From positions 1 to 50,775 of IMG/VR virus record IMGVR_UViG_3300031823_000009: a DNA stretch of 50,775 nucleotides. One strand, written 5' to 3'. The DNA comes from a virus. Numbering within the stretch: the stretch's first letter is position 1; each line of letters opens with the position of its first letter. Both the position numbers and the translations under genes were made by a program. The notes beneath the pieces were generated by a model. It was not told where the DNA came from. It saw only the letters and a program-made list of their open reading frames with translations, and made no database searches. Shown in pieces: positions 6,978 to 40,836 of the stretch.

Positions 6978-7190
6978 TTACTCCTCGATAATTTCGAAAG
7001 AATCCACGCGTAATGTTTTATCGATAAAACATCCACGTGCGACGTAGATAGGGATTTTATTCGCCAAATGAAATTCTGCTCGTTCACGGGAATCAAACAG
7101 ACCGTGCACTGCGTTTCGATCCTTCTTTTCGACGAGCTTAAACATTTCGATCTCCATCTGTTGACGTGTGTAGTTCCAATGGTTTGTCAT
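6978..7190 (-). CDS. Hypothetical 70-aa protein
   Basis: ATG at 7190 is preceded by AAGGAAAATC. The protein (MTNHWNYTRQQMEIEMFKLV...) has a helical start and a beta-rich end (IPIYVARGCFIDKTLRVDSFEIIEE). Five bases separate it from the next gene. Member of the leftward run of small early genes; unknown function. Confidence 0.68.
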   Translation of the reverse strand: MTNHWNYTRQQMEIEMFKLVEKKDRNAVHGLFDSRERAEFHLANKIPIYVARGCFIDKTLRVDSFEIIEE

Positions 7191-38948: not shown

Positions 38949-39881
38949 GTGCAAGTCATCGATCGAAGTTTGCAGCCTTCACAATATTGGCCCGGCCTCT
39001 ATGCGTTGTTTGGTCTGGACTATGAAAGGCTGATGCCGGTCTATCCGCAATTTTTTGATTCAAAGCCCAGCGAGAAGGCTTTCGAGGAGTTCATGACGGA
39101 ACGCGCCGGCCTTGGTCTCGCCGTGCAGCAACCGGAATTGGAGCCCGTTCAGTTCGACGTGCCGAACGAAGGCTATCGGACGCAAGTCACGCATGCAAGC
39201 TATGGCCTCGCCGTGGGGATTTCACGCGAAGCGAAGGACGACAACCTATACGAAGATGTTGGTTCCCGCATGATGAAGGAACTGGCATTTTCGGCTCGGC
39301 AGACTGAGGAATACATTGCCCACGCGCCATTGCAAGTTTCCGTGGACGCCGTGAATGGCGTTCGAGCTGACGGCGTTCCGCTCGGGTCTGCGGCGCATCC
39401 AACCGCCGTCGGCGCGCAATCGAATTTGCTGGTCGCCGCAAACGTCTCTGAACTGGCCTTCGAAAATGCCGTCATTCAAATCTCGTACACACGCAATGGT
39501 CGCGGCTTTGTAATCAATGTCTTGCCTAAGCGCGTCATTCTCTCTCCGGAAAGCGGTCCGGAAACACGGCGCATCCTCGGATCGCCGTTGCAGTGGAACG
39601 CTCAGACCAACAATATTAACGTCCTGCGTGCCACCAATGCATTGCCGGAAGTGGTCGAAACGCCGTACCTCGTGGACAAGGACAATTATTTCGTCCAAAC
39701 TAGCGAGCAGGACAAGGACAACGGTCAAGGCTTTACGTTCTGGGAGCGCTCGCAGCTCGAAACCCGCGAAGACAGCAATTGGTCGAATCAAGCGTCGCTC
39801 ATCGCACTGTGGTTCCGCTGCGCCGCATCTGTCATCGACTGGCGTACCGTGTTTGTGAGCCCGGGTGCCGACAACGTTTAG
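38949..39881 (+). CDS. Major capsid protein, Mu gpT-like, 310 aa
   Basis: GTG start behind GAGGAGATTGAC. The sequence (PVYPQFFDSKPSEKAFEEFM..., PNEGYRTQVTHASYGLAVGI, MMKELAFSARQTEEYIA, LEFENA-like ELAFENAVIQISYT, NGRGFVINVLPKRVILSPES, SPLQWNAQTNNIN, DNGQGFTFWERSQLETREDS) follows the Mu-like major head subunit family. Forms the icosahedral shell. Head of the rightward operon with Tad2-like and tail genes. Confidence 0.9.
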   Translation: MQVIDRSLQPSQYWPGLYALFGLDYERLMPVYPQFFDSKPSEKAFEEFMTERAGLGLAVQQPELEPVQFDVPNEGYRTQVTHASYGLAVGISREAKDDNLYEDVGSRMMKELAFSARQTEEYIAHAPLQVSVDAVNGVRADGVPLGSAAHPTAVGAQSNLLVAANVSELAFENAVIQISYTRNGRGFVINVLPKRVILSPESGPETRRILGSPLQWNAQTNNINVLRATNALPEVVETPYLVDKDNYFVQTSEQDKDNGQGFTFWERSQLETREDSNWSNQASLIALWFRCAASVIDWRTVFVSPGADNV

Positions 39882-39903: not shown

Positions 39904-40188
39904 ATGAATAATCAATCACGTGGCATTGGTTGGGCCGTTAAGCAAATGCACGATGGCGCCAAAGTTCGCCGTACTGGTTGGAACGGAAAGGGGATGTTCC
40001 TTTTTCTTGTTCCCGGTTCGCGTTTCAAAGTTAACCGATCTCCACTTCTTGGTATTTACTCAGAAGGTACGGAAATTGACTATCACCCACACGTTGATAT
40101 GAAGACAGCGCAGGGTTACATCGTGCCGTGGCTGTGCTCACAGGCGGACTTACTGGCAACAGACTGGGAACTCGCCGACAACGTCTAA
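39904..40188 (+). CDS. Tad2-like (DUF2829) anti-Thoeris protein, 94 aa
   Basis: GIGWAVKQMHDGAKVRRTGW, NGKGMFLFLVPGS, then YHPHVDMKTAQGYIVPWLCS and QADLLATDWEL cover the whole DUF2829 domain, including the RRxGWNGKGM and VPWLxSQxDLLAxDW signatures. Tad2 proteins sequester the cyclic ADP-ribose signals made by Thoeris ThsB and so block abortive defence. Full length for the family. It lies between the major capsid gene and the parS-like site, so probably expressed with late genes, though anti-defence genes are usually early. Some DUF2829 proteins may do other jobs. Confidence 0.85.
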   Translation: MNNQSRGIGWAVKQMHDGAKVRRTGWNGKGMFLFLVPGSRFKVNRSPLLGIYSEGTEIDYHPHVDMKTAQGYIVPWLCSQADLLATDWELADNV

Positions 40189-40206
40189 TGTTTCACGTGA
40201 AACATT
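40187..40206. promoter_or_regulatory. parS: Perfect chromosomal-type parS palindrome
   Basis: A 20-bp perfect palindrome whose central 16 bases (40189..40204) read TGTTTCACGTGAAACA, the consensus binding site of chromosomal ParB proteins. It lies in the short gap between the Tad2-like stop and the next ATG at 40213, and its first two bases are part of that stop codon. It is the only copy in the genome. No ParA or ParB gene is visible, so any ParB acting here would be the host's. Confidence 0.85.
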
Positions 40207-40212
40207 CGCCCC

Positions 40213-40836
40213 ATGGGTGAACCGGTTCACACTACAAAGCCTAAGTTGCGCCCTTACGAAACGTGGGGTGCGTGCTCCCGTTGCAATGCCAGAGTTCCCT
40301 ACAAAACTCTTGGGCGTGAGCGGTTAACGGGCTTGCTCGTCTGCACGCGATCGTCAGGACGCGCCGTACGGCCGTGCTTCGATCCTTGGCCGCCCGTGTA
40401 CGATTTTCAGGTGTCGCCAGATAAATCGATTGACCCGCCGCCAGAGCCCCTTCCGCTGCGCTACAATCTTGACGACATATGGGGGAGTGGACCGTCATCC
40501 GGAGCGCCCAGCGTCTTCGCTGCGGGGCCTAAGGCAGCTCCGGATGACGCCACGCGGCTTGCTGCACTTCTTTCGGCGCCGCCCTATTATTCAACGCTGG
40601 GCAAGACGGCATCGTTCACCGGCATTCAGGCGCTTGCTCAGCCTGTCGCGACAGAAGTGATGAACTTGCAAACCTTCGTGCCTTCGGATTATGATGGCAC
40701 GTTCATTCCGTCCAGCTCCGTGCGGACCGTTGTGCCTCCTTCGGAAAGTGCGGAGCTGGCCGGCGTGAACACGACGGACAAGGATGTTAACGATCCGGTA
40801 CTGTCGCCTCCGTGGGCTACGCGCGTAGGAGTGTAA
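40213..40836 (+). CDS. Conserved-type hypothetical virion-operon protein, 207 aa
   Basis: MGEPVHTTKPKLRPYETWGA leads to CSRCNARVPYKTLGRERLTG, LLVC and CFDPW, a small zinc-binding-like knuckle. PDKSIDPPPEPLPLRYNLDD and a long Pro/Ser-rich tail follow. Such proteins are found next to capsid genes of podovirus-like phages; function unknown. Transcription into it passes the parS-like site. Confidence 0.7.
   Translation: MGEPVHTTKPKLRPYETWGACSRCNARVPYKTLGRERLTGLLVCTRSSGRAVRPCFDPWPPVYDFQVSPDKSIDPPPEPLPLRYNLDDIWGSGPSSGAPSVFAAGPKAAPDDATRLAALLSAPPYYSTLGKTASFTGIQALAQPVATEVMNLQTFVPSDYDGTFIPSSSVRTVVPPSESAELAGVNTTDKDVNDPVLSPPWATRVGV

Follow-up and report, generated by a model that had tools for sequence, protein, structure and literature searches.

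A phage genome with no detectable ParA or ParB of its own carries, in its late operon, an exact copy of the chromosomal parS consensus. On balance, we favor the interpretation that this palindrome is a true parS of the chromosomal type, at which host ParB is loaded, and that it so acts as a parasitic centromere. We consider it likely that host ParB binds the site; that positioning or partition of phage DNA is the main benefit is a more evenly poised proposition. The DNA analyzed, referred to here as the window (the whole stretch of 50,775 nucleotides), is a near-complete phage genome, circularly permuted relative to the record of 52,374 bases to which the related locus L124 belongs.

An Exact parS Sequence Lies in a Phage Late Operon

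A sequence match placed a perfect 20-bp palindrome, AATGTTTCACGTGAAACATT, at positions 40187 to 40206 (no strand assigned). Its core at 40189 to 40204, TGTTTCACGTGAAACA, is identical to the chromosomal parS consensus at 16/16 bp, where sites of the chromosomal type comprise this 16-bp palindrome or sequences within 1 to 2 bases of it. Given the window's own composition, the exact 16-mer is expected ∼1e-5 times per window, and no second match was found in the window even when ≤3 mismatches were allowed (shuffled sequences gave a mean of 0.30). The original prediction, namely that a perfect palindrome with a consensus parS core stands alone between a Tad2-like gene and the next late gene and has a negligible probability of arising by chance, thus proved accurate in each of these respects. 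Another perfect 20-bp palindrome, ATGTTTTATCGATAAAACAT, is located in the early region (7013 to 7032) and is absent from the relatives' loci that we compared, even at 4 mismatches.

The region is occupied by genes on the + strand. The major capsid protein (MCP) gene (38949 to 39881) is followed by the Tad2-like gene (39904 to 40188), whose stop codon (TAA, 40186 to 40188) contributes the first two bases of the palindrome. The palindrome ends 6 bp before the start codon (ATG, 40213) of the next late gene (40213 to 40836), which encodes a 207-aa C-x2-C-containing protein that produced no match in Pfam or PHROG. The site is therefore placed in a phage late operon and not in the origin-proximal location typical of chromosomal parS.

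The identity of the Tad2-like gene was confirmed (PF11195, 4e-23). This gene is present between MCP and parS in the window only; it is missing in the three closest loci, L122 to L124, in which parS lies directly 3′ of the capsid stop codon and abuts it. In addition, an 11-bp direct repeat, GCCGACAACGT (39867 to 39877 and 40174 to 40184), flanks the gene. Because it is absent from L122 to L124 and bounded by this repeat, the sequence identifies the anti-defense gene as a late or recent insertion between MCP and parS that is not part of the parS story, and the Tad2–parS link implied earlier is accidental. The best relatives of the Tad2-like gene are mostly from Pseudomonadota, with a Phenylobacterium bin first, which provides a weak hint as to the host.

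The window codes for a helicase, primase, DNA polymerase, large terminase, capsid protein, and head-closure protein. Searches for ParB_N (PF02195) and the ParA-type AAA_31 domain (PF13614) found neither in the window or in the L122 to L124 records, and tyrosine integrases and serine recombinases were not found in the window or its clade; control genomes gave signals in these searches. The claim that phage ParA and ParB are absent was thus borne out, and the window and the L122 to L124 records do not carry the ParA and ParB pair that defines a phage-borne ParABS system. With no phage ParA or ParB found, host ParB is the obvious ligand for the site. Since no ParB_N, AAA_31, integrase, or serine recombinase was detected, the description of the phage as lytic-looking is fair, with virulence itself a probable reading. 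On the same grounds we rejected, for the clade, a prophage state (integrated or as a plasmid) served by a partition system of its own. A search aimed at the host revealed no MCP relatives in bacterial genomes, and no near DNA relatives were found among isolated phages.

parS Is Restricted to, and Unchanged within, a Small Clade

A scan of IMG/VR with the capsid protein yielded 80 related loci (85 to 99% amino acid identity). Only three of these, L122, L123, and L124, contain parS, and they are the nearest to the window (MCP 98 to 99% identical). The remaining 77 loci lack it. An IMG/VR scan with parS and its 3′ flank uncovered no further clade member. The parS clade thus has four members (the window and L122 to L124), which represent three lineages: the window, L122, and L123/L124. 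The prediction had asked for the site at the syntenic place in relatives, and had named absence or mutation in all of them as evidence against it; the three nearest loci keep parS unchanged, and the other 77 are without it. Positional conservation is accordingly found inside the four-member clade only, and because 77 of the 80 loci do without the site, parS is dispensable for this kind of phage.

Within the clade, the three lineages do not differ at any of the 24 bases that run from the parS core up to the next start codon, while pairwise third-position identity is 67 to 78% in the capsid gene and 77 to 83% in the 207-aa gene. The probability that a 16-mer would survive neutrally in all three lineages is ∼8e-4. 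These data bear on whether the site could have arisen by chance or been left behind, as a neutral relic, when the phage recombined with host DNA. The restriction of parS to one clade, with 77 of the 80 loci lacking it, is what such an origin would produce; yet an exact 16-mer is hardly expected in a window of this size, the site is unchanged across lineages with strong neutral divergence, and the 24-bp spacer is too short to hold host-like flanks. We consider a chance or relic origin highly improbable.

In the three-lineage alignment, the invariant run spans 45 bp (40189 to 40233, + strand), begins exactly at parS, and is the second-longest in the 8.5-kb alignment. It continues into the start of the 207-aa gene, the first codons of which contain a 14-bp palindrome, GTGAACCGGTTCAC (40217 to 40230), that is present only in the four parS-bearing members. 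Because the run extends into this gene start and palindrome, not all of the constraint need stem from ParB, and part of it may concern gene expression.

Among 35 complete or partial records, the only additional matches at ≤2 mismatches were those of L129 (one 2-mismatch site) and L137 (two sites). The L137 sites, an exact parS and a 2-mismatch site, are located in a 98-kb record, in a stretch without nucleotide match to the window. This record (L137, L322, and L325) is probably a chimeric or mixed contig, in which a phage of the window's family is joined to the genes of another phage, and its parS was left out of our counts.

parS Occupies the Place of a Terminator and a Putative Promoter

To the 3′ side of the capsid gene, the spacers of the relatives contain a GC-rich hairpin followed by a T run in 43 of 79 loci by a strict test, and this element is a predicted terminator. 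After the hairpin, and upstream of the 207-aa gene homolog, loci in the L125 to L201 set have an extended -10 element, TGnTAnnnT. Its last T lies 5 to 7 nt before the ATG in 13 of the 29 distinct short spacers of relatives, and at exactly 6 nt in 9 of the 29. The chance of this pattern is ∼1e-25 under an assumption of independence, a value that is only indicative as the spacers are related. Placement of a -10 element 5 to 7 nt from the start codon is as would be expected for leaderless late transcripts. Many of the same relatives (L125 to L201) also have a conserved string resembling TTTCCTCCCTAGACTTGG 5′ of the terminator hairpin in the spacer after the capsid gene.

The parS clade has no such terminator in its spacer. 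The right part of the palindrome, TGAAACATT (40198 to 40206, + strand), is a putative promoter element that parS overlaps, as suggested by its register: 6 nt separate its last T from the ATG, matching the extended -10 in 9 of the 29 relatives. Because this T is exactly 6 nt from the ATG and the terminator is absent, parS occupies the promoter's place. We also evaluated the palindrome as an intrinsic terminator and rejected it; the 8-bp stem is AT-rich and no T run follows, and a two-hairpin fold of the 40-nt stretch with parS has a predicted energy of −9.9 kcal/mol.

As the terminator and promoter of the relatives are exactly replaced, and as Pseudomonas aeruginosa ParB at the intergenic sites parS3 and parS4 represses adjacent genes (PMC7022226), we see local regulation of the late operon as the chief competitor to a partition function. 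According to this alternative, host ParB covering the promoter and the beginning of the 207-aa gene would repress or road-block the late operon in place of the relatives' terminator, and rising phage copy number would dilute ParB and free the operon, creating a gene-dosage timer. The position of TGAAACATT in register in a clade without the terminator fits such control. But the -10 hexamer inside parS does not have the first T of TAnnnT, such that the promoter is only putative, and in Bacillus subtilis loss of Spo0J leaves parS-adjacent genes unchanged (PMC7022226). Moreover, intergenic copies of a control palindrome (see below) are also mostly found between co-directional genes, and local control does not readily account for parS in multisite phages or inside genes. 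We therefore view an operator function as rather unlikely, and we retain as the preferred reading a parS that loads host ParB chiefly for the placement of phage DNA.

The Same Site Recurs in Phages of Many Hosts

The exact 16-mer was found in 286 of 50,697 annotated phage records, at 824 places on both strands (∼412 sites), while a control palindrome of the same composition, TGTTCTACGTAGAACA, was found in 0 of 50,697. The 20-mer was present in 212 phage records, while neither of two controls, one retaining the CACGTG core, was found in any. Many of the parS-bearing records are near-copies (Listeria and Microbacterium phages), and the independent lineages are fewer. These findings do not support the initial presentation of the site as a single oddity. 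In IMG/VR, the 20-mer retrieved at least 120 stretches, compared to 6 for the control; the bare 16-mer did not discriminate, with at least 120 for both parS and the control palindrome.

The location and number of the sites also differ from the control. parS was intergenic in 154 of 237 fetched viral sites (65%) vs. 24 of 91 (26%) for the control palindrome (P 3e-10; calls made by simple ORF tiling and not a gene caller), and more than one site was present in 46 of 219 loci (21%) vs. 0 of 101 for the control (P 6e-9). IMG/VR contigs may include host or plasmid fragments, a doubt of which isolated phages are largely free. Most parS-bearing virus records lack ParB_N: in a set of 46 IMG/VR records, the window and five kin among them, the domain was matched in 7 (5 pass the family cut-off). 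Only 1 of 16 isolated phages examined in detail (15 with the AT-type site, and KPP25 with the GC-type) encodes a ParB_N protein, that phage being Quhwah.

The carriers are diverse. Small ones include microviruses (Spiroplasma phage 4) and filamentous phages; podovirus carriers are phi29-like phages of Bacillus, Enterococcus, and Glutamicibacter, and further carriers are Herelleviridae of Listeria and Lactobacillus and phages of Gordonia, Arthrobacter, and Ruegeria. Firmicutes and Actinobacteria phages account for most occurrences of the AT-type site, whereas a GC-type site, TGTTCCACGTGGAACA, is present in 58 records, most often those of Pseudomonas phages. This division presumably matches the parS usage of the hosts. 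Individual genomes show distinctive arrangements. In the T5-like Vibrio phage phi 3 (L440, KP280063.1), parS-type sites are found at 821 and 2934, both inside the left terminal repeat, and two others close to the right end, in the DNA that would be first to enter the cell if injection is T5-like. In Quhwah (L451) and related Microbacterium phages, parS lies inside the gene for an HTH DNA-binding protein throughout the group, and the ParB_N protein of Quhwah is encoded elsewhere. A rodent-gut inovirus (L441, PQ006098.1) carries five exact parS sites in 5.8 kb and has no ParB_N domain.

The survey allows two other proposals to be weighed. One is that a different protein, namely a repressor of the phage or the host, binds the palindrome, which equals parS by convergence. 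Phage operators are often palindromic, and the second clade-restricted palindrome, GTGAACCGGTTCAC, begins 12 bp after the parS core. Convergence is nevertheless hard to reconcile with a perfect 16-bp universal parS that recurs in unrelated phages of many hosts when shuffled palindromes do not, and we judge this proposal quite improbable. The other, raised in the original prediction, is that replicated phage genomes act as a decoy, titrating host ParB and disturbing chromosome segregation or division of the host. Phage ParB is absent, genome replication would multiply the single site by the late stage of infection, and the rodent-gut inovirus has five sites. Against this, a single site per 51-kb genome could soak up little ParB before late infection, a stage at which host segregation is of hardly any consequence, and a sponge would favor arrays, which the clade does not have. 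Titration is thus not favored, and we regard it as improbable.

With this site present in many unrelated phages, it is probable that phages borrow the chromosome-segregation machinery of the host. The broader proposition, on which we are evenly divided, is that capture of host parS by ParB-less phages is widespread and has evolved repeatedly, in genomes as small as those of 4-kb microviruses and filamentous phages and as large as the 160 kb of tailed phages, and that the type of site is matched to the host, which would make ParB/SMC loading a common and overlooked interface.

Discussion

At parS, CTP-bound ParB is loaded and closes into a sliding clamp that makes contact with ParA and SMC (PMC12704722). 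We propose that a small clade of probably virulent phages evolved or captured a host-type parS, at which the host ParB-CTP clamp would bind, close, and slide over the neighboring kilobases. The loaded ParB would couple the phage genome to host ParA and SMC, and this coupling could keep phage genomes in place or partition them, both on entry and during replication, so that phage DNA passes to each daughter when, for example, a slowly growing or carrier cell divides. We favor positioning or partition because borrowed ParAB works in this manner for the integrating element SGI1, and because it explains sites in phages of very different gene orders. A counterpoint is that a quickly lytic phage would have little obvious need of partition.

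Should phages indeed load host ParB, infection would involve ParB, ParA, and SMC, which may serve to position incoming genomes, to see virulent phages through host divisions, or to set the timing of late genes. In that case, parS on a metagenomic contig would by itself be no proof that the contig is host chromosome. The idea is directly testable in the laboratory, as the B. subtilis phages BSP11 and Chedec 11 bear such sites.

In the openly licensed full texts that we searched, parS in phages appears only alongside a ParB encoded by the phage or as a tag inserted for imaging (PMC7157519, PMC8585504, PMC10286716). Within this literature, we found no report of a chromosomal parS in ParB-less phages as an exploited host site. 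The closest parallel is SGI1, which carries parS mimics and is stabilized by the ParAB of its IncC helper plasmid (PMC10954446). Like the window phage, SGI1 is a mobile element without ParAB that carries the parS of another replicon, which for the phage we assume to be the host chromosome. In SGI1, the partner's ParB binds the sites, SGI1 gains stability, and the partner is disturbed (PMC10954446). SGI1, however, is an integrating element with a plasmid partner, whereas the window phage has a chromosomal-type site, no detected lysogeny genes, and a function that we infer. The phage site shares the identical 16-bp sequence with the parS of chromosomal ParABS/SMC systems but differs in residing on a phage genome, in a late operon, with no linked parAB. 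The extrachromosomal mycobacteriophage prophages RedRock and Miko likewise have centromere sites on phage DNA, but they encode their own ParA and ParB, and the RedRock sites are arrays of 8-bp repeats and not the chromosomal 16-mer (PMC7157519). Finally, phages of the Staphylococcus epidermidis phage Lacachita genus have a partial partition system, suggesting use of the remaining parts from the host; these phages supply ParB without ParA, whereas the window phage supplies a host-type site and no protein (PMC10286716).
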